Shown here one piece after another: positions 17,043 through 34,291 of a DNA stretch of 57,216 nt. The notes beneath the pieces were generated by a model. It ran no database searches. It had not been told where the DNA came from and worked only from the letters and a program-made list of their open reading frames with translations. Both the position numbers and the translations under genes were made by a program. Numbering within the stretch: the stretch's first letter is position 1; the number at the start of each line of letters is the position of its first letter. The DNA comes from Bryobacterales bacterium (GTDB lineage Bacteria > Acidobacteriota > Terriglobia > Bryobacterales > UBA6623): positions 1 through 57,216 of the forward strand of contig JAJEHF010000013.1 in NCBI GenBank assembly GCA_022823865.1, in the 5' to 3' direction.

Positions 17043-20000
17043 GTGGCCATCGCCCTCGCCTTGCCGCTCGTCTTTCCGGCGGCGCTGGACGTCCTCGCGC
17101 AAACCGCTCCGAGCGTGACGGCGGTGGAGATCACCTCGACGCCGATGGGCGACGCGAACTCCGACGACACGCCGGAGACCTACGGGGGGGAGGAGACGAT
17201 CAAGGTCCGGCTGACCTTCAGCGCAGCGGTTGTGGTAACGCCAAGCACGCCAACGAACCCGCCGAACCTGAGGATTAGCCTGGGATCGGGCAGCGGAAAC
17301 GACCGGCTCGTGTACTACGACAGCGGCAGCGGCTCGACTCAGCTGAAGTTCGTCTATAGGGTGGACACGGCGGACGTCTCGACCCTAGGCATCGCGGTGC
17401 TCCAGAATTCGCTGGTGCTGAACGACGGCACGATCGCCGCGCAGGCGGACAGCTCGATCAACGCGGTTCTGACGCACACGGGGCTGGCCCGCGATCCCAA
17501 TCACAAGGTGAACGGTAGCCTGGACACGGCGGCGCCGGGCCCGCAGAGCGCGCGGGTGGACGGGCGGCGGCTGGAAGTGATCTTTACCGAGTTCCTCGAC
17601 ACCGCGTCGCAGCCCGCGGGCAGCGCCTTCACGGTGACGGCCACGCCCGAGGGCGGCACGGCCCGCTCCATCAGCGGCACGGGCACGGCGGCGGTTGTCG
17701 GCGGCACGGCGACTGTCATACTAGCCGGCTCGGTCGCGCCCGGCGAGGCGCTCACGGTCGCGTACGCCAAGCCGGCCAGCGGCCCGCTGCGGGACACTGC
17801 CGAGAACGAGGTGGCCGACTTCTCCGGGCAGGAGGCGACCAACATCACCCCGCAGGGACCGGCCTACACTCTGGTGCGCAACACGGGGCAAAGCGTGGAC
17901 TCCGGTTTCATCTTCGCTACCGGGGACATCGCACAATCGTTCACGACTGGCAGCCAGACCGGCGGCTACCGGCTGACCAGCGCGGAGATCTACCTGAAGA
18001 ATGCGGGCACCTCGTCGGTGACCTACAGCGTGAGCATCGTCAACGCCGCGTCGGGCCCCCTGCCGGGCAGCACCGTTCTGGGCACGCTGGAGAAGCCGGA
18101 CGCACTGGTCGGCGGACGCAACACGTTCACGGCCGCCGGCGAGGGCATCCAACTGGACGCCAGCACGACCTACTTCTTGGTCTTCGACACGCTGACGGGC
18201 GGGTTCAACTGGTTCGACTACGAGGCCGACCTGGCGGCATCGGACGATGAGGATCCCGGCGCGGCGGCGGGCTGGAGCATCGGGAACGCGCACTATCAGC
18301 GGAGTGGATCCACGTGGACGCAAGCGTCCGAAATCAGCCCAGGGAAAAGAGGCTCGGCGCTGATCGCCGTCAACGGTCACGAGGCGCGGTCGAAGACGCT
18401 GGTGGCCAACACCGGGCAGACCTCCGCCGCCAGTTCCACAAACGCCGCCTTCAGCAACGACCAAGCCCAGCCGTTCGATACCGGCAGCAACAGCGGCGGC
18501 TACCGGCTGACCGCGGTGCAGGTCGAGACCGCCATCGACAATCCGGGCAACGCGACCGCCCCGACTTACGAGGTGAGCATCCGATCCGATTCGTCCGGCG
18601 ATCCGGGCGACAGCGAGGGCACGCTGGAGAAGCCGTCCGCGCTGTCCCAGGGGGTCAGCACGTTTACGGCCTCCGGCGCGGGCATCAAGCTGGACGACAG
18701 CGAGACGTACTTCGTGTTGATAGACGTGAGTGCGGCGGGGAACAAGGGCGTCAAGGTCCAGCGCACTACCACGAACGCCGAAGATTCGGGCGCGGCGGCC
18801 GGCTGGAGCATCGGGGACACCTACCGGCGGAGGGGGAACTCGGACACCGACTGGACCAGCGCCACCGACGACGCCAACGAGGTGAAGATCGCCGTGCGCG
18901 GGCACGGCATCGGGCCGGACTTCCAGAGCGCGGAGGTGGACGGGAACGAACTGGAGGTGACCTTCGCTGGGAACCTGGGCGCCAGCGCGACGCCCGGCAC
19001 GGCGTTCGACATCATCGCCACCAAGCCGGACGGCACGGCGCGCGGCATCGGCGGAACCGGCAGCGCGACGATCTCGGGGGCCAAGGCGACCGTGACGCTG
19101 GCCCAGCGGGTGGACCCGGACGAGACGCTGACGCTGCGCTACACGCCGCCGGTCGTTGGCGCGCTTGGAAACGGCAGCGGCAACTGGGTGGACGCCTTCT
19201 CCGGCGAGCAGGCGAGCAACGCCAACGAGGGGACGCCGTTCGTGACGGCGGTGGAGATCATCTCGACCCCGTCGACCGATTCGGACGCCGATGGCACGGT
19301 GGACGCCTACGGGTCGCGCGAGACGATCCAGGTCCAGCTGACCTTCGGATATGCGGTGGCCGTGACGGGCACTCCGCGGCTGAAAATCGACCTCAGTTCA
19401 GCAGACGGAGACGAGAAGTGGGCGGAGTACGCCGACGGCGATGGCACGACGCAGTTGACGTTTGCCTATTCGGTGGGGACGACGGACGTCTCGACCGCCG
19501 GCATCGCGGTGCTGCAGGACACGCTGGAGTTGAACAGCGGCACGGTGGTCGCGCAAGCGGACAGCACACTCAACGCGATCTTGGCGCATGCGGGGCTGGC
19601 CCACGATCCCGGCCACAAAGTCAACGGCAATCTGGCGGTGCCGTTCGTATCGGCGGTGGCGATCACCTCGACACCGTTGATTGACGTCGACAACAACGGC
19701 ACGCCGGACACCTACGGGGGGCTCGAGAAGATCCGGGTCCGGCTGACCGTGAGCGCAGCGGTGGCGGTGACGGGTACCCCGCGGCTGCAGATCGACCTGA
19801 GCACGAACAGCGGGGGCGAGCGCTGGGCCGAGTACGCCAGCGGCAGTGGCACGACGGCGCTAACGTTCGCCTACACGGTTGGGACGGGGGGAGATGACCT
19901 CTCGACCGAGGGCATCGCGGTAATCCGGAACACGCTGCAGCTGAATGGCGGCACGATCGTGGCACAGTCGGACAGCACGCTAAACGCGATTCTGACGCAT

Positions 20001-23000
20001 GCGGGACTGGCCCACGATCCCGGGCACAAGGTGAATGCCGCCCTGGACGTGGTGGTGCCGGTCGCCCAGAGCGCGGAGGTTCGAGGGCGGACGCTGGCGG
20101 TCACCTTCTCCGAGGTCCTCGACACCGGGTCAAAACCGGCCGGAAGCGCCTTCACGGTGACGGCAACGCCGGAGGGCGGCACGGCCCGCTCCATCAGCGG
20201 CACGGGCACGGCGGCGGTTGTCGGCGGCACGGCGGCGGTCACGCTTGCCGGCTCGGTCGTGCCCGGCGAGGAACTCACGGTTGCCTACGCTCTGCCGGTC
20301 GGCGGCGGTCCGCTGCGGGACCCCTCCGAAAACGAGGTGGTCCCCTACTCCGGCCAGGAGGCGGCCAACGTCACCCCGCAGGGGCCGGCCTACACGCTCG
20401 TGCGCAACACGGTGCAGAGCGTAACCAACGAGTTCAATTTCGCCAACGGGGACCTGGCGCAGCCGTTCACCACCGGGGGCCAGGCCGGCGGCTACCGGCT
20501 GACCAGCGCGGAGATCTGGTTCAGGTACGCGGGCGACTCGGAGGTGACCTACAGCGTGAGCATCGTCAACGCCGCGACGGGCGGCGCGCCGGGCACCACC
20601 ACCCTAGGCACGCTGACAAACCCGGCCGCGCTGGCCGGGGGGCGCAACACGTTCACGGCCGCCGGCGAGGGCATCCAGCTGGACCGCAACACGAAGTACT
20701 TCCTAGTCTTCGACACGCTGACCGGCGGATCCAACTGGGGCGACTATGGGGCCGACCAGACGCGATCGGACGACGAGGACCCCGGCGCGGCGGCGGGCTG
20801 GAGCATAGGGAACGCGTACTATTTCCGGAATGGAGCCACGTGGACGCTATCGTCGTTCGCCGACCAACCGACACAGGATCGATACTCGGCACTGATCGCC
20901 GTCCACGGTCACGAGGAACGGTCGAAGACGCTGGTGGGGAACACCGGCCAGACCTCCGGCGCCAGCTCCTCCAACGCCGCCTTTAGCAACGACCACGCCC
21001 AGCCGTTCACCACGGGCAGCCACGACGGCGGATACCGGGTGACCTCCGTGCAGGTCGGGACCGACATCGACTCGCCGTCTAACTCGACCGAGCCGACGTA
21101 CGAGGTGAGCATCCGGTCCGATTCGTCCGGCGATCCCGGCACCAGCCTGGGCACGCTCGCCGGACCGGCCGCGCTGGCCGCGGGGACCAACACGTTCGCG
21201 GCCTCCGGCGCCGGCATCAAGCTGGACGACGGAACGAAGTACTTCCTGCAGGTGGACGTGAGCGCGGCGGGGGACCGGGGCGTCAAAGTCCAGCGCACCG
21301 CCACGAACGGAGAGGACGCGGGAGCGGCGGCGGGCTGGAGCATCGGGGACAAGTACCGGCGGAAAGGCAACACCGCCACGACTTGGAGCGAGGACGACAA
21401 CGAGGTGAAGGTCGCCGTCCGCGGGCACGGCATCGGACCGGCGTTCCAGAGCGCGGTGGTGGACGGGACGCGGCTGGTGGTGACCTTCGACGGGAGTCTG
21501 GGCTCAAGCGCGACGCCCGGCTCGGCGTTCGACCTCATCGCCACGAACTTGGGTGGCACGGCCCGCGGCATCGGCGGCACGGGCAGAGTGCGGATCTCCG
21601 GCAGGAAGGCGACCGTGACGCTGGCCCAGGAGGTGACCGCGGACGAGGCGCTGACGCTGCGCTACACCCCGCCTGCCGCCGGCGCGCTGGGGGACGGCAG
21701 CGGCAACTGGGTGGACGGCTTCTCAGGACGGGATGTGAACAACGACTGGGGGAGCACACCGTTCGTGACGGCGGTGACGATCACCTCGACCCCGGGGGGC
21801 GACGCGAACTCCGACGGCACGCCGGACACCTACGGATTGGGCGAGACGATCCTGATCCGGCTGTCCTTCAGCAAGGCGGTGGCAGTCACGGGCACGCCGC
21901 GGCTGACGATCGCAATGCGTGATGGCTTCAATCGCTGGGCGTTTTACGTCAGAGACACCAGCGGCCCGACTGAGCTGATGTTCGCCCACACTGTGGCGGC
22001 ACCGGACCACTCAAACGGCATCGAGGTGTTGCAGAACACGCTGAGTCTCAACGGCGGGAAGATCGTCGCCCAAGCGGACGGCTCGGTCGACGCGATACTG
22101 ACGCACGCGGGGCTGGCCCAACAACGCGGCCACGGAGTGGGCCACTGGCTTGTGGAGACGATCCCGCCGACCCCGCGGATCGCCGAGGTGTCCCGGCAGA
22201 CCCTAGCCGTCGGCTTCACCGAGTACCTCGACAGCGGGTCGGCGCCGCCGGGCAGTGCCTTCACGGTCACGGCCACGCCGCCGGGCGGGACGGCCCGCAC
22301 CATCCGCGGCACGGGCATCGCGTCGGTTTCCGGCGGCGCGGCGACGGTGACGCTGGCCGGCTCGGTCGCGACCGGCGAGGCGGTCACGGTCCGGTACGCC
22401 AAGTCCACCAGCGGCCCGTTACGGGACCTCCGCAGCAACGAGGCGCGCGGCTTCTCGGGCCAGCAGGCGGCCAACGGCACCCCGGCGGGGCCGCGGCTCG
22501 TGAGCAACACGGGGCAGAGGTCAGTCACCCTCGACCCCAACGCCCCGTTCGACAACTCTGTCGCGGAGTTCGGCGCCGACCTCTCGCAGGCGTTCACCAC
22601 CGGCAGCTACAGCGGCGGCTACAGGCTGAACAGCGTGGAGATCCACATGGCGAGGGCGTTCCCGACGGGGCTGCCCTACAGGGTGAGCATCCGGAACACC
22701 GAGGCGTCCGGCGCGCCGGGCAGCACCGTCGTGGGCACGCTGACCAACCCGGCCTCGCTGGTCGTCGGGCTCAACGCATTCACGGCCGCCGGCGAGGGCA
22801 TCCAGCTGGCCGCCAACACGACGTACTGCGTGGTCCTGACCCCGCAGTACAGCGTTAAGAGATTCAGGGACATTGCGATCAGCCTGACGCTTTCGAACTC
22901 CGAGGATGCCAGCGGGACCGTAGGGTTCAGCATCGCGAATACCAGATGGGTTCGAGTCCTCACTCCAACAATCCCTTGGGAGAAAGTCACTGCCACCAGA

Positions 23001-26000
23001 ACCGTTTGGAAGATGGCCATCAACGGTGCCGAGGAACGGTCGACCGCGCTGAGAAGCAACACCGGGCAGACCGCATCGGCCAGCTCATCGGACGCCGCCT
23101 TCGGCAACGACCACGCCCAGTGGTTCCGTACCGGCAGCCAGACCGGCGGCTACCGGCTGACCAGACTGCAGCTCGGCACGAACATCGGCACTCCCGCCAA
23201 CACGACCGCGCCGACCTACAGCGTGAGCATCCGGAACCCGGCCACCAACAATTCCCAAATCCCCGGCACCTTGGCGGGCGATCTGGAGAATCCGGACGCG
23301 CTGGCCGCCGGGGGGCTCAACACCTTCGCGGCCACCGGCGTGGGCATCAAGCTGGCCGCCAGCACGACCTACTTCGCAGTGCTGGACGTGAGCGCCGCGG
23401 GGGACAAGGCCGTCCAGATCCAGCGCACGAACACGAACAACGCAGATGCGGGCGGGGCTACGGGCTGGACCCACGGCCAGCAGTCCCGGCGGAGGACGAA
23501 CTCGGCCACCGACTGGAGCGGCGGCGTCGACGACGACCACGAGCTGAAGTTCGCCATCTACGGGCACGGCGTGGGGCCGGGGTTCCAGAGCGCGACGGTG
23601 ACCGGGGACCAGCTGGTGGTGACCTTTGCCGGGAATCTGGGCACGGGCACGACGGTGTCCGGCACGGTCTTCGACGTGACCGCCACGAATCCGGACGGCA
23701 CGTCCCGCGGCATCGGCGGCACGGGCAACGTGACCATCTCGGGGGCCACGGCGACCGTGACGCTGGCCTCGGCGGTGACCTGGGACGAGACGGTGACGCT
23801 GAGCTACTCCCCGCCGGCCGCCGGGGCGCTGGGGGACGGCAGCGGCAACTGGGTGGACCCCTTCTCCGACCAGGCGCTGACGAACGACACGACGGCGCCG
23901 CTGCTCGTCGGCAACACCGGTCAGACGTCGGACGGCGGCACCATCGGATTCGGCACGGTCTCGGGGGTTAACTGGCTCATCGGGCAAACCTTCACGACCG
24001 GCGGCAACACGGCCGGCTACACGCTCTCCTCAGTCGACGTGAAGCTGGCCTCCGGAACGCCCTCCTCCAATACCCGGGTGAGCATCTACACCACCTCCTC
24101 CGGCAGCCCCAGCGCCAGCCTGCACGTGCTGACCAACCCCTCTTCGCTCACCGGCAATGCGACCAACAAGTTCACGGCGGCCGCGGGCACGTCCCTGGAC
24201 GCGAACACGACCTACGCCGTGGTCTTCGAGGTCACCAGCGGAACGGTCACAACCACCCTGGACCGGACCGCCAGCGATGCCGAGGACTCGGGCGGGGCCA
24301 GCGGATGGAGCATCGGTGACAGGCACCATACGAAGCAGGGCCCCGGCACCTGGACGGAGAGAGACCCAACCATTAGCGAGGTACCGCTGATCGCGATCAG
24401 GGGGACGGCGAAGACGCTCGTGATAACGCCGCCCCCCTTGGACCCGCCGCCCCCCCCGTCGGACACGACGGCGCCGACGGTGGTGAGCGCCACAGTGGAC
24501 GGGGCGGCGTTGACGCTGGCCTTCAGCGAGGACCTGGACACGACGGCGGCCCCGGCCGCGTCGCGCTTCACCGTCTCCGGGACCGCGAGCACCACGACGG
24601 TGACCGCCGTTGGGTTCAAGAGCGGCGACGCGAGGTCCGTGGAGCTGGCCCTGAGCCGGCCGGTGACCGGAAGCGAAACCGGGATCACGGTCGCGTACGC
24701 GAAGGGGAGCGATGCGAACCCGCTGAAGGACAAGGCGTCCCCCGCGAACGAGGTCGCGGACTTCTCCGGCGTGTTGGTGACCAACAACACGCCGGCGACG
24801 GAGACGCCCGTGACGCTAGTCAGCAATACCGGGCAGGCGTCGGATGGCGGCGCCCTTTTGGTAGGCCCATCCTCAGGGGTTCACTGGTCCCAAGCGATAA
24901 CCTTCACGACCGGCGGCAACTCGGCCGGCTACACGCTCTCCGAAGTCGATGTGAAGCTGGCCTCCCACACGCCCTCCGCCAATACCCAAGTGAGCATCTA
25001 CACCACGACCGGCACCCCCCCGGTCCCCAGCACCAGCCTGCACGTGCTCAACAACCCCTCCTCGCTCACCGCCAGCGCGGTCAACACGTTCACGGCGGAC
25101 GCGGGCGCGTCACTGGCTGCGAGCACGACCTACGCCGTGGTCGTCGAGGTCAACACCAGCGGAACAGACAGAACCGAGCTTGACCGGACGGCTAGCGATG
25201 CCGAGGATGGCGGCTCGGCCAGCGGATGGAGCATTGGCAACACGAGAATCAATCGGCAGGGCACCGGCAGCTGGAACTATTCAACCCATTCCTCGGTACC
25301 GCTGATCGGGATCAAGGGGGCGGCGACGACGGACACGACGGCGCCGACGGTGGTGAGCGCCACAGTGGACGGGACGGTGTTGACGCTGGCCTTCAGCGAG
25401 GACCTGGACACGACGGCGGCCCCGGCCGCGTCGCGCTTCACCGTCTCCGGGACTGCGAGCGCCACGACGGTGACCGCCGTGGCGTTCAAGAGCGGCGACG
25501 CGAAGTCCGTGGAGCTCACCCTGAGCCCGGCGGTGCCCGCAAGCGACAGCGGGATCACCGTCGCGTACGCGAAGGGGAGCGATGCGAACCCGCTCAAGGA
25601 CACGGCGGCCACCCCGAACGAGGTCGCGGACTTCTCCGGCCAGGCGGTCGTGCAGGTCGTGACGCTCGTCGGCAATACCGAGCAGACCTCGGATACCAGC
25701 CACCGCACAGTCGGCGTGGTCTCGGGGGTGAACCGTTCCGCAGCGCTTTCCTTCACGACCGGCGGCAACACGGCCGGCTACACGCTCTCCGCGGTCGACG
25801 TGAAGCTGTCCTCCGGATCGCCCTCGGCCAATACCAAGGTGAGCATCTACACCACCTCCTCCGGCAGCCCCGACTCCAGCCTGCACGTGCTGAACACCCC
25901 CTCTTCGCTCAGCGCCAGCGCGACCAACACGTTCACGGCGGACGCGGGCGCGACCCTGGCTGCGAACACGACCTACGCCGTGGTCTTCGAGGCCAGCAGC

Positions 26001-27911
26001 GGCCAAACCAACCTGGACCAGACAACTAGCGATGCCGAGGACCCGGGCGCGGCCAGCGGATGGAGCATCGACACCCATACACGTAGCAAGGACGGCAGCG
26101 GCAGCTGGAGTCTGTCAGGCAGTACGATACCGCTGATCGCGATCAAGGGGACGGCGAAGACGTTCGTGATAACGCCGCGGCCGGGCACCACGCCGCAGGG
26201 CCCCTCGGGCGCGAGCGAGCGGCCGCGCCGCGACCCCGTGCCGCTGCAGCTGGCGCTGTGGACCGACCGGCCCGCCTACCGCGCCGGCGAGAGCGTCCGC
26301 CTGTACCGCACCCTCGACCCCCACGAAGACGAGGCCCGCTACCACACCTTCGTCTATCTGGAGCGGGCTGGGGGCGAGGAAGGCGAGGAGGCCGAAGAAG
26401 GCGAGGAGGCGGAGGGAGTCGAGGAGGCCGAGGAGGGCAAGGAGCGGAGCTATCTCTCCCCTCTGTCTGCCGCGGCGGAGTTGCACGCCGATCCCGTCAA
26501 TGACCGCGGCATGCCGGAGGACCTTGCCAAGGCGTGGCGCCTCACCCCCGCCGACCGGGAACTGATCTTCGAGGTCCCCGTCCCCGAACCGGGCCTGTGG
26601 CAGTTCGTGCTCGAGCTGCGGCCCGGGGGGCCGATGGAGCAGGACCGCGGCTTCGAGGAGCCCTTGAGAACCCGCCGGGCCTGGGCCAAGTTCGTCGTCG
26701 CCGAGGGCGGCCAGCTGCTCAACCGGCGCGGCTTCACCCGCGAGGTCAAGACCGAGCTGACGCTGCGCGCCGACAGGATCTACTACCTGCTGCACCAGAT
26801 GTTCGTCCGCGACGGGGCCACGCTGACGATCGAGCCCGGCACGTACCTGCAGGCCTTCGGCCCGCAGACCGCGATCATCGTCGAGCCGGGCGGCCAGATC
26901 GTGGCCGAGGGCACCCGCGAGGCGCCGGTGGTGCTGACCTGCGTCGATCCGGTCGGACAGCGCAAGCCAGGCTGCTGGGGCGGCCTGCGCCTGCTGGGCC
27001 GGGCGCCGGTGACCCGCCTGGAGGGCAGCGTGCCGGGCGTGCTGCCTGCCGAGCGGGCGGTCTACGGGGGGACGGACGCAGAGGACTCCTCCGGCGTGCT
27101 GCGCTACGTGCGCGTGGAGTTCGCCGGGGCGGCCGCCGAGCCGGAGGCGAGCGCTCCGGCGATCGGGCTGTACGGGGCCGGCTCGGGCACGGTCCTGGAT
27201 CACGTCCAGGCGCGCGCCAGCGGCGGCGACGGCATCGCCTTCAGCGGCGGCACCGCCACCTGCAGCCACTGTATTGCCAGCGCCTCGAGCGGCGCCGGCC
27301 TGTCGTGGGAGCGGGGCTGGCAGGGCACCGGCTCGCATGTGTACGTGCAGCACGGTCGCGAGGGCGGCGACGGCCTGGCCGGCGCCCACGACCCCGAAGG
27401 CCATGACCGCGAGCCGCGCTCGCACCCGACCCTGTCCAACGTCACCCTGGTGCACGCCGCGCCCTACGGCCGGAACGCGCGCAAGGCGGTCGCCGTGCAG
27501 CTCTCCACCGGCAGCGCCATCCGCGCCTACGACTTGGTGGCGACCCACTTCGGCGGCGGCGCGATCGAGGCCTCGGGCCGCTCGCGCCTGCTGTTCTTAG
27601 ACGGCGAGAGCTCGGTCTACGGCGCGCTGCTGTGGCTCAACGGCGCGCCCCAGGTGCCGCGCGGCTTCGCGGACGCGGTGGAGTTCTCGGCGAGCAACCC
27701 GCAATTGCGCGACGTGCGCGACTTCGCCAACCCCGACCCGCGCCCCAAGACGTCCCTGTCCGTCGTGAACTACGTCTTGGACGTTGAAGCGTACAACCGG
27801 GCGGGCTACATCGGAGCCTTCCACTGGGAGGAGAACTGGCTCGACGAATGGACCGTGTTCGGACCCGAGTCCCTGTATGACCTGCGGGAGAGGGGCGCGG
27901 ACGGGAACTAG
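17043..27911 (+). CDS. Giant repetitive secreted/surface protein with C-terminal beta-helix
   Basis: 3622 aa from GTG at 17043; the first residues MAIALALPLVFPAALDVLAQ look like the core and cleavage site of a signal peptide without a charged n-region. Four modules recur. Module A starts like FVTAVEITSTP with DGTPDTYG (about residues 24, 732, 867, 1573). Module B is a SwmB/Ig-like unit such as FTEFLDTASQPAGSAFTVTA (about 165, 1008, 1715), with shorter forms at 627, 1467 and 2181 and a TAPTVVSATVDG form at 2477 and 2767. Module C resembles choice-of-anchor-R domains (NTGQ at the start, FTTG, GYRLTS or GYTLS; nine copies from 278 to 2876). A highly acidic Glu-rich linker lies near 3111-3134 and a right-handed beta-helix-like region from about 3229 to the end, with GATLTIEPGTYLQAFGP. 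Role inferred: adhesin or large cell-surface protein. Confidence 0.85.
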   Translation: MAIALALPLVFPAALDVLAQTAPSVTAVEITSTPMGDANSDDTPETYGGEETIKVRLTFSAAVVVTPSTPTNPPNLRISLGSGSGNDRLVYYDSGSGSTQLKFVYRVDTADVSTLGIAVLQNSLVLNDGTIAAQADSSINAVLTHTGLARDPNHKVNGSLDTAAPGPQSARVDGRRLEVIFTEFLDTASQPAGSAFTVTATPEGGTARSISGTGTAAVVGGTATVILAGSVAPGEALTVAYAKPASGPLRDTAENEVADFSGQEATNITPQGPAYTLVRNTGQSVDSGFIFATGDIAQSFTTGSQTGGYRLTSAEIYLKNAGTSSVTYSVSIVNAASGPLPGSTVLGTLEKPDALVGGRNTFTAAGEGIQLDASTTYFLVFDTLTGGFNWFDYEADLAASDDEDPGAAAGWSIGNAHYQRSGSTWTQASEISPGKRGSALIAVNGHEARSKTLVANTGQTSAASSTNAAFSNDQAQPFDTGSNSGGYRLTAVQVETAIDNPGNATAPTYEVSIRSDSSGDPGDSEGTLEKPSALSQGVSTFTASGAGIKLDDSETYFVLIDVSAAGNKGVKVQRTTTNAEDSGAAAGWSIGDTYRRRGNSDTDWTSATDDANEVKIAVRGHGIGPDFQSAEVDGNELEVTFAGNLGASATPGTAFDIIATKPDGTARGIGGTGSATISGAKATVTLAQRVDPDETLTLRYTPPVVGALGNGSGNWVDAFSGEQASNANEGTPFVTAVEIISTPSTDSDADGTVDAYGSRETIQVQLTFGYAVAVTGTPRLKIDLSSADGDEKWAEYADGDGTTQLTFAYSVGTTDVSTAGIAVLQDTLELNSGTVVAQADSTLNAILAHAGLAHDPGHKVNGNLAVPFVSAVAITSTPLIDVDNNGTPDTYGGLEKIRVRLTVSAAVAVTGTPRLQIDLSTNSGGERWAEYASGSGTTALTFAYTVGTGGDDLSTEGIAVIRNTLQLNGGTIVAQSDSTLNAILTHAGLAHDPGHKVNAALDVVVPVAQSAEVRGRTLAVTFSEVLDTGSKPAGSAFTVTATPEGGTARSISGTGTAAVVGGTAAVTLAGSVVPGEELTVAYALPVGGGPLRDPSENEVVPYSGQEAANVTPQGPAYTLVRNTVQSVTNEFNFANGDLAQPFTTGGQAGGYRLTSAEIWFRYAGDSEVTYSVSIVNAATGGAPGTTTLGTLTNPAALAGGRNTFTAAGEGIQLDRNTKYFLVFDTLTGGSNWGDYGADQTRSDDEDPGAAAGWSIGNAYYFRNGATWTLSSFADQPTQDRYSALIAVHGHEERSKTLVGNTGQTSGASSSNAAFSNDHAQPFTTGSHDGGYRVTSVQVGTDIDSPSNSTEPTYEVSIRSDSSGDPGTSLGTLAGPAALAAGTNTFAASGAGIKLDDGTKYFLQVDVSAAGDRGVKVQRTATNGEDAGAAAGWSIGDKYRRKGNTATTWSEDDNEVKVAVRGHGIGPAFQSAVVDGTRLVVTFDGSLGSSATPGSAFDLIATNLGGTARGIGGTGRVRISGRKATVTLAQEVTADEALTLRYTPPAAGALGDGSGNWVDGFSGRDVNNDWGSTPFVTAVTITSTPGGDANSDGTPDTYGLGETILIRLSFSKAVAVTGTPRLTIAMRDGFNRWAFYVRDTSGPTELMFAHTVAAPDHSNGIEVLQNTLSLNGGKIVAQADGSVDAILTHAGLAQQRGHGVGHWLVETIPPTPRIAEVSRQTLAVGFTEYLDSGSAPPGSAFTVTATPPGGTARTIRGTGIASVSGGAATVTLAGSVATGEAVTVRYAKSTSGPLRDLRSNEARGFSGQQAANGTPAGPRLVSNTGQRSVTLDPNAPFDNSVAEFGADLSQAFTTGSYSGGYRLNSVEIHMARAFPTGLPYRVSIRNTEASGAPGSTVVGTLTNPASLVVGLNAFTAAGEGIQLAANTTYCVVLTPQYSVKRFRDIAISLTLSNSEDASGTVGFSIANTRWVRVLTPTIPWEKVTATRTVWKMAINGAEERSTALRSNTGQTASASSSDAAFGNDHAQWFRTGSQTGGYRLTRLQLGTNIGTPANTTAPTYSVSIRNPATNNSQIPGTLAGDLENPDALAAGGLNTFAATGVGIKLAASTTYFAVLDVSAAGDKAVQIQRTNTNNADAGGATGWTHGQQSRRRTNSATDWSGGVDDDHELKFAIYGHGVGPGFQSATVTGDQLVVTFAGNLGTGTTVSGTVFDVTATNPDGTSRGIGGTGNVTISGATATVTLASAVTWDETVTLSYSPPAAGALGDGSGNWVDPFSDQALTNDTTAPLLVGNTGQTSDGGTIGFGTVSGVNWLIGQTFTTGGNTAGYTLSSVDVKLASGTPSSNTRVSIYTTSSGSPSASLHVLTNPSSLTGNATNKFTAAAGTSLDANTTYAVVFEVTSGTVTTTLDRTASDAEDSGGASGWSIGDRHHTKQGPGTWTERDPTISEVPLIAIRGTAKTLVITPPPLDPPPPPSDTTAPTVVSATVDGAALTLAFSEDLDTTAAPAASRFTVSGTASTTTVTAVGFKSGDARSVELALSRPVTGSETGITVAYAKGSDANPLKDKASPANEVADFSGVLVTNNTPATETPVTLVSNTGQASDGGALLVGPSSGVHWSQAITFTTGGNSAGYTLSEVDVKLASHTPSANTQVSIYTTTGTPPVPSTSLHVLNNPSSLTASAVNTFTADAGASLAASTTYAVVVEVNTSGTDRTELDRTASDAEDGGSASGWSIGNTRINRQGTGSWNYSTHSSVPLIGIKGAATTDTTAPTVVSATVDGTVLTLAFSEDLDTTAAPAASRFTVSGTASATTVTAVAFKSGDAKSVELTLSPAVPASDSGITVAYAKGSDANPLKDTAATPNEVADFSGQAVVQVVTLVGNTEQTSDTSHRTVGVVSGVNRSAALSFTTGGNTAGYTLSAVDVKLSSGSPSANTKVSIYTTSSGSPDSSLHVLNTPSSLSASATNTFTADAGATLAANTTYAVVFEASSGQTNLDQTTSDAEDPGAASGWSIDTHTRSKDGSGSWSLSGSTIPLIAIKGTAKTFVITPRPGTTPQGPSGASERPRRDPVPLQLALWTDRPAYRAGESVRLYRTLDPHEDEARYHTFVYLERAGGEEGEEAEEGEEAEGVEEAEEGKERSYLSPLSAAAELHADPVNDRGMPEDLAKAWRLTPADRELIFEVPVPEPGLWQFVLELRPGGPMEQDRGFEEPLRTRRAWAKFVVAEGGQLLNRRGFTREVKTELTLRADRIYYLLHQMFVRDGATLTIEPGTYLQAFGPQTAIIVEPGGQIVAEGTREAPVVLTCVDPVGQRKPGCWGGLRLLGRAPVTRLEGSVPGVLPAERAVYGGTDAEDSSGVLRYVRVEFAGAAAEPEASAPAIGLYGAGSGTVLDHVQARASGGDGIAFSGGTATCSHCIASASSGAGLSWERGWQGTGSHVYVQHGREGGDGLAGAHDPEGHDREPRSHPTLSNVTLVHAAPYGRNARKAVAVQLSTGSAIRAYDLVATHFGGGAIEASGRSRLLFLDGESSVYGALLWLNGAPQVPRGFADAVEFSASNPQLRDVRDFANPDPRPKTSLSVVNYVLDVEAYNRAGYIGAFHWEENWLDEWTVFGPESLYDLRERGADGN
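17541..22500 (+). repeat. About 2.5-kb super-repeat inside the giant gene
   Basis: The modules are arranged as A-B-C-C-B' blocks. Corresponding positions in block 1 and block 2 are about 840 codons apart (B 165 to 1008, C 278 to 1120, C 455 to 1297, B' 627 to 1467). At the DNA level the run AGCGCCTTCACGGTGACGGC at 17622 recurs at 20145, an offset of 2523 bases, with near-identity continuing for about 90 bases. Block 3 (from about residue 1573) is the same order with one A module less than block 2. Confidence 0.75.
24461..26200 (+). repeat. 870-bp tandem duplication in the giant gene
   Basis: The sequence from GGACACGACGGCGCCGACGG at 24461 recurs at 25331, exactly 870 bases (290 codons) later. 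The first about 200 bases are nearly identical, and the remainder encodes the same SwmB-plus-choice-of-anchor-R pair with more substitutions. The in-frame offset preserves the reading frame. Confidence 0.8.
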
Positions 27912-28370: not shown

Positions 28371-29426
28371 ATGTTCCGACCCCGGTTACGCCGACGCGAC
28401 TGGGCCTTTGGCCTCGCGGCGTCATTGTTCCTTATGTCCGCACCGGCTTCAGGTATCGCAGCCGGCCCCGAAGTCGGGGAGAGCATCCCGGCTTTCGAGG
28501 CCATCGATCAGTCCGGCAACGCCCGGGACTTCGCCAGCCTGACGGGGGAGCGGGGGCTGCTGCTGCTGTTCTACCGCTCGGCGGACTGGTGACCGTTCTG
28601 CAAGGGCCAGCTCGTGCAGCTGGAACGCAAGCGCCAACAGCTTGAAGCCAGTGGCGTTAACATCGCCGCCATTAGCTACGACAAGCGGGAGGCCCTGAGC
28701 AATTTCGCGGAGCGGGCCGGAATCGGATTCCCGCTGCTCTCCGACCCCGACTCCGAGATCATCCGCGCCTTCGGGGTGCTGAACGAGGACGTTCCGGAAA
28801 CGCACCAGTTCTACGGCATCCCGCACCCGGTCGAGCTCCTGCTGCGTCCGGACCGGACCGTGGCGGAGAAGTTTCACGAGGAAAACTACAGGGATCGCTT
28901 CACTGCCGGCCGCATCTTGGTCCGCCAACTGGGTTCCGACGCGGGAGGCGCGCGGACACAGCAGCGGACATCGCACCTGAAGGTGACCAGCTGGGCCAGC
29001 GACGAGACCGTGCGCGGCGGCAATCGATTCGCCCTGGTGCTCGACATCGGCCTCAACGACAAGATGCACGTCTACGCCCCGGAGGTCGAGGGCTACATTC
29101 CCATCGCTTGGAACATGGACGAAGGCTCCGGCGTGACCCTCTACGACGCGGAGTTTCCCGAGGCGAAGACCCTGCACCTTCCGGCGATCGACGAGCGCGT
29201 GCCCGTCTACGAGGGCAAGTTCCGCCTAGTGCGCGACATCATGATCGGCCAGGCGAACGAACTCGGCGATCTGCTCGAAGACGGCGCGCTGAAGATTCGC
29301 GGCAGCCTGCGCTACCAAGCGTGCGACGACAAGGTCTGCTACCTGCCGACGACCGTGCCGCTGGAATGGACGATCCAATTCGAGCAGCACGATCGCACCC
29401 GGGTGCCGGAAGCCCTGCGCCGCTGA
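28371..29426 (+). CDS. Redoxin / DsbD-alpha fusion, probable selenoprotein (Sec at codon 74)
   Basis: 351 aa if the in-frame TGA at 28590-28592 is read as selenocysteine. The ATG at 28371 opens MFRPRLRRRDWAFGLAASLF, a Sec signal peptide. Residues about 35-190 are an AhpC/TSA-type redoxin: VGESIPAFEAIDQSGNARDF, then LLLLFYRSADW-TGA-PFCKGQL, with the TGA exactly at the first position of the CxxC-like motif that in relatives reads SADWCPYC or similar. The frame continues without another stop for 278 codons through YDKREALSNFAERAGIGFPL and FYGIPHPVELLLRPDRTVAE. Residues about 205-345 resemble the DsbD N-terminal domain, with LRYQACDDKVCYLPTTVPLE supplying a cysteine pair. A hairpin suitable as bacterial SECIS follows the TGA. 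The role would be periplasmic thiol/selenol redox exchange or peroxide reduction. The alternative is a Cys-to-stop mutation. Confidence 0.8.
28590..28627 (+). promoter_or_regulatory. Candidate bacterial SECIS hairpin after the in-frame TGA
   Basis: Directly after the TGA (28590-28592) the sequence can fold with an upper stem CCAGCT (28607-28612) against AGCTGG (28618-28623) around the 5-base loop CGTGC. A lower CGTT/AACG stem (28594-28597 with 28624-28627) lies below a 9-base bulge. The loop starts 20 bases after the TGA and has G in its second position, within the accepted spacing and loop rules for bacterial SECIS elements. A weaker competing CTGCA/TGCAG pairing exists. Confidence 0.65.
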
Positions 29427-31981: not shown

Positions 31982-32464
31982 GCGGTTAGGATAGCCTTCT
32001 TCGGCGGCCGGGCACTCAACGACCTTGCCTGATAGTGCGCTGATGCCCAGCGCCTTGAGCGAAGGTGCCCGTCACCTCCCCGCATCGGCCAGTCGCATCG
32101 AGAGTGCTCGGCCGAGAACGCCTTGAAGCAGACCGACGGTGGCGAAGAGGCTGGAGGTGACAGATGCTTGATCTGCTGCTCCCGGTCCAGAGGATGAGCG
32201 TTGGTAGGCTGGATTGGATGCGCGGCTCGGTCATTGCTCTTGGAGGGGTCGCGAGACTCGTGTTGGTATCCGGATTGGTGGACGGCTGCTCGGTTCCGTC
32301 AGAAAGTGCTGCACAGCGGGGAATGGAGAGTTGATTGGAGGAGCTCGGGGCGGCTCTGAACGCTGCGACGAGCGAACCGATCGGTCCGATTGTTCCGACG
32401 GAGAGTCCTTGCGAAGACCTGAAGGCTAAGTCGGTTCTGGTTGAGCAATTGGGAGGCATTTGCG
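31982..32464. other. Intergenic stretch of lower G+C, no confident gene
   Basis: Divergent region between the NHL gene and the ZIP/CNB gene. A frame from ATG at 32218 reads like a lipoprotein start (VARLVLVSGLVDGC, SVPSESAAQRGMES) but ends at TGA 32332-32334. It continues in the same frame into the next gene's 5' end with low third-position G+C. I regard this as non-coding or decayed. Promoters for the two flanking genes should lie here. Confidence 0.35.
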
Positions 32465-34291
32465 GTGTTGGAACCCCTGACCCTTCTTGCGTTATCGATG
32501 GGAATTCTGAGCGCATGCTCGCTGCCGCTTGGAACACTCACGACCCTGTTCTGGCGGCCCGATGATCGCTCCGTCGGGATCCTCATGGCCTTCGGCGGCG
32601 GCGCGCTCCTCGCAGCGCTGACGCTCGATCTGGTCGCCTCTGCGCTCGCCCAGGGGCACTTCCCCTGGCTGGCGGCCGGCTGCGTGCTCGGCGGCGGGAT
32701 GTTTGTCGGACTCAACAACGTCATCAACAACCACGGGGGATTCCTGCGCAAGTCTTCGACCGTGGTGAACTACCTCCAGCGCAGGAGCCGCAAGCGCTTC
32801 CGGAAGGCGCTCGGCGAACTGGAGCGGATCGGCACATTTCGCGACCTGAAGCGCCATGACCTCGAGGAAGTGGCGTCCGCAGCCGTGTACGCCGAATTCG
32901 AGGATGGCGCGACAGTCTTCAGCGTTGGCGATCCCTCCGACTTCCTCTATGTGGTCGCGGAAGGGGAGGTGTCGACCACGGATCCGGCGCTCCCAAGTGA
33001 TCCGCCTGCGGTGCACCGCGCTGGAGGGACTCCCGGGCAGTATGCCTTCATCACCGGGTCTCCTCACACCAGGCATGCGGTCGCGACCCAGGACTCGCAG
33101 GTCTGGATGCTGCCGCGCGAGGAGTTTCAGCGGGCCTTGGCGATCTCGGCACCACTCGCCGCTGCCGTCATGAAGCTCGTTTCCGACGATTCCGTCACCC
33201 GCTATTTGAAGGAGCGCCAGAGGCTCACTGCCGAGCAAGTCGCTCGATGGCGGGAGAGCGCTCTGGCCGGCGTCACAGCGGGCGTGCTGCCGAGTGCCGT
33301 CACCATCGAGCGCAATCGCGACGAGTTCGTCCGCACGTCCGCCGGACTCCGCAGTCTTCCGATCTTCCGCGGGCTGTCACCGGCGGACTTGAGCGCCGTC
33401 GCCGACCGGCTGTTCTGCGTCCGCTATGAACGGGGCGAGACGATCTACCGCCACGGCGAGCTGGCGGACCGCCTCTACGTCGTGGCGGGCGGACAGGTGG
33501 CGTTGATTCCCCCTGCGGGCCGGGCTCTCCGGCGCCTGACCGCGGAACCGGGCCAAGCGCTCGGCGGCAGATCGTTCATCACCAATGCCCGCCGCTTCTA
33601 CAGTTCCATCGCGATCGATCCGACGGAGCTTTGGGTGCTCCGCAAGTCCGACTTCGACGCATTGATGCGGAGCAACCCGGCTATTCACGAGAAGGTCAGG
33701 GACTACCTGTCGGGGGTGGAGAACAAGGACTACTTGACGGACGTGCAGGGGTTCGCCGCGCGGGAAGTGCAGCGTTGGATCAGTCGCGCCACGCGCAGCG
33801 TCGACAGCGGTCGTCTCATGCCGTCGGTCTCGGACATGGCCGTACATGCCAATCTCCACAAGGGCGCGCCCCTCGCCATCTGGCTGGGCATCCTGCTCGA
33901 CGGCATTCCCGAATCCGCGGTCATCGGTAGTTCGCTCATTCACGGTCCGGTCAGTGCTTCCCTGATTGCCGGTCTGTTCCTGTCCAACTACCCCGAGGCG
34001 TTGTCAAGTTCGGTCGGCATGCAGCAGCAAGGGATGAGCTTTGCGAGGGTCCTATTCATGTGGACCTCGCTCATGGTGCTGACCGGCATCGGGGCGGCAC
34101 TCGGCAGCATATTCTTCGTCGGGGCCGATCCGCACGCCTTCGGCCTGGTGCAAGGAATCGCAGCCGGAGCGATGTTGACCATGATTGCGCAAACGATGGT
34201 GCCCGACGCCTATCTCAAGGCGGGCCCGGTGATCGGCATTTCGACGCTGATGGGTTTTCTCGCTGCGATCTTCTTCACGACCTTGGAGTAG
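32465..34291 (+). CDS. ZIP-family metal transporter with two inserted cyclic-nucleotide-binding-like domains
   Basis: 608 aa from GTG at 32465; GGGAGG is eight bases upstream, which decides the start over the upstream TTG at 32441. Residues about 2-88 contain three membrane helices (FGGGALLAALTLDLVASALA). A soluble region from about 120 to 405 holds two CAP-effector-like domains: ELERIGTFRDLKRHDLEEVA with YVVAEGEV, and LRSLPIFRGLSPADLSAVAD with YVVAGGQVALIPPAG. Their phosphate-binding cassettes are degenerate (PGQYAFITGSPHTRHAVAT; LGGRSFITNARRFYS lacks the usual GE and Arg). From about 464 the ZIP core returns with HKGAPLAIWLGILLDGIPES and four more helices. Inferred role: divalent-metal (Zn/Fe-like) transport gated or sensed by the soluble domains. 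Confidence 0.82.
   Translation: MLEPLTLLALSMGILSACSLPLGTLTTLFWRPDDRSVGILMAFGGGALLAALTLDLVASALAQGHFPWLAAGCVLGGGMFVGLNNVINNHGGFLRKSSTVVNYLQRRSRKRFRKALGELERIGTFRDLKRHDLEEVASAAVYAEFEDGATVFSVGDPSDFLYVVAEGEVSTTDPALPSDPPAVHRAGGTPGQYAFITGSPHTRHAVATQDSQVWMLPREEFQRALAISAPLAAAVMKLVSDDSVTRYLKERQRLTAEQVARWRESALAGVTAGVLPSAVTIERNRDEFVRTSAGLRSLPIFRGLSPADLSAVADRLFCVRYERGETIYRHGELADRLYVVAGGQVALIPPAGRALRRLTAEPGQALGGRSFITNARRFYSSIAIDPTELWVLRKSDFDALMRSNPAIHEKVRDYLSGVENKDYLTDVQGFAAREVQRWISRATRSVDSGRLMPSVSDMAVHANLHKGAPLAIWLGILLDGIPESAVIGSSLIHGPVSASLIAGLFLSNYPEALSSSVGMQQQGMSFARVLFMWTSLMVLTGIGAALGSIFFVGADPHAFGLVQGIAAGAMLTMIAQTMVPDAYLKAGPVIGISTLMGFLAAIFFTTLE

Follow-up and report, generated by a model that had tools for sequence, protein, structure and literature searches.

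An in-frame TGA within a redoxin/DsbD-alpha fusion gene

The locus at positions 28371 to 29426 raises the question of whether a TGA interrupting an otherwise continuous reading frame marks a broken gene or is read as selenocysteine (Sec), and what kind of protein would result in the latter case. The window, i.e., the whole stretch of DNA that was analysed (57,216 nucleotides), is contig C68 of a 6.07 Mb bin of 231 contigs with an estimated completeness of 94.3%, and the nearest named relatives of the protein, found in bins of Bryobacterales/Terriglobia, are 92-95% identical to it. The initial annotation had placed this TGA at the active-site motif of a redoxin with intact frame on both sides, which we could confirm, as the frame runs from ATG 28371 to a stop TGA at 29424 and is split by TGA 28590-28592 as codon 74, with 73 codons upstream and 277 sense codons plus the stop downstream. 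The following features were assigned:

28371..29426, + strand: whole coding sequence with TGA 28590 as Sec, 351 residues; nearest relatives align across residues 1-351
28371..28463, + strand: probable signal peptide, residues 1-31, judged by eye from a basic start, a hydrophobic run and small residues
28473..28868, + strand: AhpC/TSA (redoxin) domain, residues 35-166 (Pfam AhpC-TSA)
28590..28592, + strand: in-frame TGA, read as Sec74 of a U-P-F-C motif; TGA in 71/83 and a Cys codon in 12/83 distinct loci covering the codon
28599..28601, + strand: Cys77, the second member of the UxxC pair; Cys in 114/114 loci, aligned to the peroxidatic Cys of E. coli Bcp
28607..28623, + strand: bSECIS-type hairpin with a stem of 6 bp (28607-28612/28618-28623) and the loop CGUGC at 28613-28617, in which G28614 and U28615 are conserved
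28614..28616, + strand: GTG, possible false start call within the apical loop of the hairpin; opens a 270-aa remainder ORF
29019..29354, + strand: DsbD-alpha (nDsbD / DsbD_N) domain, residues 217-328 (Pfam DsbD_N)
29322..29324, + strand: Cys318 of the alpha-domain CxxxxC; Cys in 112/114 loci (gap in L182, Pro aligned in L201)
29337..29339, + strand: Cys323 of the alpha-domain CxxxxC; Cys in 113/114 loci (gap in L182)

The redoxin half matched Pfam AhpC-TSA with an E value of 2e-25 (89.6 bits, cut-off 26) and the C-terminal part matched DsbD_N with 3.4e-9 (37.2 bits, cut-off 25), the fold agreeing as well, so that the C-terminal DsbD-alpha domain with a CxxxxC pair (C318, C323) initially proposed is well founded. 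The structure model reached a pLDDT of 90.4 and a pTM of 0.85 for the whole protein, and 88.4 and 0.82 for the alpha domain, while residues 1-30 had a mean pLDDT of 45-51. The start ATG is present in L024 too. As anticipated in the initial annotation, an automatic gene call could split the gene at GTG 28614, since this codon opens the remainder ORF; more generally, where TGA is taken only as a stop, the gene would be split or truncated in every Sec-carrying genome and the redox protein can stay hidden. Located 3' of the gene are those for lumazine synthase (ribH) and NusB (nusB), and nothing was seen in the neighbourhood that further explains the gene.

The TGA is shared among homologs

A search of 150 genomes of the same order gave matches in 73 at E ≤ 1e-20, and the 81 loci read carried TGA in 71 cases (window included) and a Cys codon in eight, codon 74 being uncovered in two. 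Adding 11 full-length loci of a scan of named genomes, among which five coincided with TGA loci and one with a Cys locus from the order search and two were mutually alike, resulted in 83 distinct loci covering the codon, with TGA in 71 (window included) and Cys in 12. The 71 distinct TGA loci come from 64 of the 150 order genomes, making this redox protein frequent in the order, and they include assemblies of 1, 3 and 10 contigs (G005, G019, and G007). The named-genome scan itself found 80 loci, 79 of them covering codon 74 (TGA in 5, at 92-95% identity, and Cys in 74); since its patterns included ADWCPFCK and were thereby biased toward Cys, the proportions of TGA and Cys were taken from the order search. 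At the level of the phylum, 47 of 396 genomes matched at E ≤ 1e-35, and the 29 loci read had TGA in 24 and Cys in 5; these overlap with the order set (L187 and L147 are one gene, and in the tree L212 is identical to L034), the genus of the window not being recounted. In close relatives codon 74 is TGA, and part of the more distant ones carry Cys instead.

No additional stops were present within the aligned stretches of the 90 reads. The wider search added a TAA near the start of the gene in G069, outside the aligned stretch, and the phylum search reported two TGA in the scored range of L191 (G203:C45), in which the stretch read has one. Apart from these, random stops elsewhere, regarded in the initial annotation as a sign of a nonsense mutation or an assembly error, were not seen. 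Compared with the five nearest relatives, the codon changes after the TGA were mostly synonymous, amounting to 25/11, 24/9, 42/17, 43/17, and 41/16 (synonymous/nonsynonymous, raw counts), and codons 75-86 were nearly unchanged, while in four distant Sec relatives (65-73% identity) the counts of 94/65, 86/66, 76/76, and 77/120 were not mostly synonymous in all. A Cys protein affected by a nonsense mutation or an assembly error, with translation ending at the TGA and the remainder being a dying remnant, would fit with TGA being one base away from the Cys codons TGC/TGT of the homologs, but we dismiss this explanation as extremely improbable, since an identical TGA at one codon in 71 distinct loci of 64 genomes, including the assemblies of few contigs, makes a shared error not credible, and since the frame is intact past the TGA and a hairpin is tied to it.

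A few loci differ from the general pattern. Genome G023 holds both copies of the fusion protein, one with Cys (L117) and one with Sec (L134). L177 (G005), L178 (G007), and L213 (G284) belong to a second, distant paralog group, about 31% identical and with an RSAVW-TGA-P motif, thus also carrying TGA; L177 and L213, both placed in the tree, have the hairpin. In L183 (G090) and L184 (G052) the match covered only the C-terminal portion, beginning at residue 152 or 184, the N-terminal half being different or absent.

A conserved SECIS-type hairpin follows the TGA

Bacterial SECIS elements are described as having an apical loop of 3-9 nt with a G at position 1 or 2, an upper stem of 4-16 bp, a distance of 16-37 nt from the TGA and a minimum free energy of at most -7.5 (Fig. 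2 of PMC13188914). The hairpin of the window, with its 6 bp, the loop CGTGC and a spacing of 20 nt after the TGA, is of this kind, the energy of the bare hairpin (-7.4) just missing the limit and that of the whole 51-nt fold being -15.3 kcal/mol. The spacing noted in the initial annotation was thus correct and proved to be conserved, but the single sequence is no more stable than its shuffles (-15.3 versus a shuffle mean of -15.34 kcal/mol, z 0.01). Being ordinary by energy alone, the hairpin gains its significance only from comparison among homologs.

We therefore rely on the order's 71 TGA rows, of which 69 are distinct, compared with 500 shuffles. The six stem pairs form in 98.6% of the cells of the 69 distinct rows as compared to 90.4% in shuffles, and sliding one arm of the stem by 1-3 columns lowers the pairing to at most 50.5%. 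Double-sided changes in the stem occurred in 41 cells versus 14.4 in shuffles, whereas the number of further pair types showed no excess (6 versus 5.0, equalled or exceeded by 36 of 500 shuffles). In the main covarying pair, the third position of a Gln codon is paired with the first position of a Leu codon, and a change from G-C to A-U is therefore silent on both sides; this pair was GC in 34, AT in 28 and GT in 2 of the 64 rows that are distinct over the first 45 bases. The synonymous covariation at columns 21/31 (57 GC, 31 AT, and 2 GT in 90 rows) was retained after correction for kinship, with 10 independent pairs, of which 9.4 agree and 0.0 disagree (median p 0.004).

The hairpin also distinguishes the Sec from the Cys genes. 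Scanning for at least 5 bp at the permitted spacing and E ≤ -4.5, a limit for the bare hairpin of our own choice, detected it in 63/64 distinct TGA genes, 0/12 Cys genes and 1102/14080 other codons of the TGA genes, and at -7.5 these numbers were 38/64, 0/12, and 425/14080, respectively. In the set of 113 rows used for the tree, it was present 20-21 nt past the codon in 88/90 Sec rows and 0/23 Cys rows, eight of the latter being outgroup rows, and within its loop the G was invariant in the 90 Sec rows and the next U was found in 89. The two Sec rows failing the hairpin test, L119 and L121 (G021 and G025), lack the outer stem pair. With kinship taken into account, seven independent pairs on starred branches could be compared, of which 6.9 on average agree and 0.0 disagree with the association between hairpin and Sec (median p 0.016). 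In summary, compensating synonymous changes maintain the bSECIS-type hairpin, a result that survives the correction for relatedness.

The genome encodes the machinery for Sec insertion

All four components that the initial annotation had named for a genome search were present above their cut-offs, namely SelB (369.6 bits, cut-off 242.25), SelA (518.2 bits, cut-off 267.9), SelD (302.4 bits, cut-off 125), and a tRNA-Sec (Rfam 71.2 bits, cut-off 47), for which ARAGORN also reported tRNA-SeC with anticodon tca. The SelD resides in a 752-aa frame (L021, 1390-3648, - strand) behind a part that by eye resembles Ndh, and its active-site loop carries CxxC instead of Sec, in agreement with the Ndh-SelD fusions described earlier (PMC2398784). 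Among 14 control genomes, 2 exceeded the cut-off for SelB, 1 for SelA, 2 for SelD, and 5 for tRNA-Sec, so the Rfam tRNA-Sec match is less specific than those of SelA and SelB. Moreover, the bin contains an FdhA-like frame (L216, G000:C159, at about 1732; 81.1 bits, cut-off 814.2) with an in-frame TGA in the context CNRT-TGA-HAPS, which we take to be typical of Sec-FdhA, followed by a hairpin with a GGTC loop as read by eye; judged by its sequence, this frame is very likely a Sec formate dehydrogenase. Together with the four components, it indicates that the host very probably is a Sec-using organism.

Across the order, SelB was above the cut-off in 61 of the 63 genomes that have the TGA form only; of the other two, G069 has SelA, and G147 (85% complete) has neither SelB above the cut-off nor SelA at E ≤ 1e-20. 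Of the seven genomes with the Cys form only, two have SelB, two others have SelA, and three, all of one genus, have neither; as four of the seven thus keep SelA or SelB, the association between the Cys form and the machinery is imperfect. An association of the Cys form with loss of the machinery was considered, either from SelB alone (61/63 versus 2/7, Fisher 3.5e-5) or including SelA, which was searched in 10 of the 150 genomes (62/63 versus 4/7, Fisher 0.0024), but as these tests ignore kinship and the three machinery-less Cys genomes are of a single genus, we do not rely on it.

Another explanation would be that the TGA is read as a different amino acid by recoding or a suppressor tRNA, with the hairpin being incidental. 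What is seen is the codon and not the inserted residue, and allo-tRNAs thought to be serine acceptors have been reported in some Acidobacteria (PMC7609411). However, the gene itself terminates at a TGA (29424), the genome has tRNA-Sec along with SelA, SelB, and SelD, and a hairpin that covaries and has no counterpart in the Cys genes calls for a SECIS-type reader, making this explanation highly improbable. With TGA in 71/83 loci, the hairpin in 88/90 Sec rows against 0/23 Cys rows, and the Sec machinery in place, the probable selenoprotein of the initial annotation is strengthened, and we conclude that the gene almost certainly encodes a selenoprotein.

Evolutionary history of Sec and Cys in the family

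A quick tree of 113 rows was rooted on eight Cys redoxin-only rows, with the Sec column masked except in L164. It needs nine changes between Sec and Cys, seven of which are forced by starred branches, and has Cys rows nested inside Sec clades. By parsimony, and with 34 of 108 inner branches open, this suggests a history of one Cys-to-Sec gain followed by about eight reversions to Cys, other mixtures of Sec gains and losses being possible. In comparison, Table 1 of a survey from 2006 gives a balance of 33 Cys-to-Sec versus 15 Sec-to-Cys events (PMC1794560). The family therefore offers a natural experiment, since about eight Sec-to-Cys switches within one family would make the advantage of Sec over Cys testable among near relatives.

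Proposed function of the fusion protein

It is highly probable that the selenoprotein has two functional domains, an AhpC/TSA redoxin with a Sec-Pro-Phe-Cys site and, fused to it, a DsbD-alpha domain with CxxxxC. In the mechanism that we propose, SelB positioned on the hairpin would guide Sec-tRNA to the TGA, and the protein, which is probably exported, would operate outside the cytoplasm. There, a membrane DsbD-like reductase could reduce C318/C323, by analogy with the transfer from cDsbD to nDsbD in E. coli, and the resulting dithiol would hand its electrons to the Sec74-Cys77 selenenylsulfide, after which the redoxin site would reduce extracytoplasmic peroxides or protein disulfides. By fusion, a working redoxin and its own electron feed would be combined on a single chain, and, if true, such a relay would tie selenium chemistry to extracytoplasmic thiol reduction within that chain. 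We give the relay from DsbD via the alpha-domain dithiol to the selenol an even chance of being correct. Profile searches for DsbD_TM and DsbD_2 in this bin (about 94% complete) did not find the membrane partner; since DsbD_TM was over the cut-off in 13/13 relatives searched, their best matches each lying in an open frame of 607-731 aa, its absence here is probably a gap in the bin. Beyond the single protein, we tentatively suggest a selenoprotein family wired to DsbD by fusion, in which one Cys-to-Sec gain close to the root of the Acidobacteriota fusion family was followed by about eight reversions, each without a SECIS-type hairpin, although we lean slightly against this history being right in full.

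Alternatively, the protein could be a PrxQ/Bcp-type peroxidase, with Cys77 as the residue attacking the peroxide and Sec74 as the resolving one. Cys77 aligns to the peroxidatic Cys of Bcp, among curated models the thiol peroxidase NF006960 comes nearest (61.2 bits, below its cut-off of 140), and peroxiredoxins head the PDB sequence, Foldseek and VIA results, with no ResA among the 50 VIA rows listed. On the other hand, ResA and another thiol-disulfide oxidoreductase rank second and third in Foldseek, and Sec or Cys takes the place of the Thr of TxxC, giving WUxxC as in thioredoxin-like reductases. In the alignment with E. coli Bcp, Sec74 lies opposite that Thr and Cys77 opposite the peroxidatic Cys, and the motif is therefore of the UxxC type and not that of a TxxU Sec peroxiredoxin. 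We consider a peroxidase of this type less likely than not.

The two domains might also work separately: thioredoxin-like partners or small thiols would then reduce the redoxin, and other proteins would be reduced by the alpha domain as in DsbD/ScsB. In many Cys homologs of other phyla the match ends at about residue 176, and the four inspected have a stop soon after; since such redoxin-only homologs exist, the redoxin does not require an alpha domain. In addition, DsbD_TM was not found in this bin, and L100, judged by eye, may represent an alpha-type protein that has a signal peptide of its own. Against such independence, the redox residues are kept jointly (Cys77 in 114/114, Cys318 in 112/114, and Cys323 in 113/114 loci), and DsbD_N was matched by 80/83 rows. 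A selenoprotein with separately working domains appears rather unlikely.

Relation to known selenoproteins

Redoxin selenoproteins with UxxC are already known. The Prx-like thiol:disulfide oxidoreductase selenoprotein (PF00578, UxxC) is of the same AhpC/TSA family and has Sec first in UxxC, but the published tables give it (representative WP_010940744.1) no DsbD-alpha domain, a comparison made by description (Table 1 of PMC13188914; Table 1 of PMC1794560). A redoxin with UxxC is also shared, again by description, with the Redoxin family selenoprotein (PF08534, UxxC, HEU0032618.1) and GOS Prx-like 3. In 2008, Prx-like 3 was reported as fused to a Cys-bearing domain of unknown kind whose cysteine pattern differs (PMC2398784), and Unknown_3, which by its description has three conserved Cys with CxxC, is set apart from the window protein with two, as CxxxxC in a DsbD-alpha domain. 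TsoB, a rhodanese/DsbD fusion-like selenoprotein (NF045694, UxxxxU; Table 1 of PMC13188914), likewise has a DsbD-type part, but it combines rhodanese with UxxxxU, whereas the window protein combines redoxin with UxxC, and NF045694 was not among the NCBIfam matches of the window protein at E ≤ 1. Those matches comprised 19 families, none over its cut-off (SelL_rel_redox, 47.4 of 120 bits). A redoxin/DsbD-alpha selenoprotein is absent from the main table of a 2026 review, which, supplementary listings aside, covers 119 families or subfamilies (PMC13188914).

As for non-selenoproteins, DsbD-alpha/nDsbD and the N-terminal domain of ScsB sit on a membrane protein, whereas the alpha domain of the window protein sits on a redoxin. 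The fold of the redoxin half is shared with the thiol peroxidases Bcp/PrxQ and with ResA, and E. coli Bcp is 33% identical over 145 columns; Bcp, however, has TxxC where the window protein has UxxC, and the latter has the extra alpha domain.

Two further open reading frames were observed in the window. The one at 17043-27911 (3622 aa) has seven SWM repeats (Pfam) and long direct repeats of 62-93% identity, and thus represents a very large repeat protein, and the one at 32441-34291 (616 aa) contains two cyclic-nucleotide-binding domains together with membrane-like stretches seen by eye.
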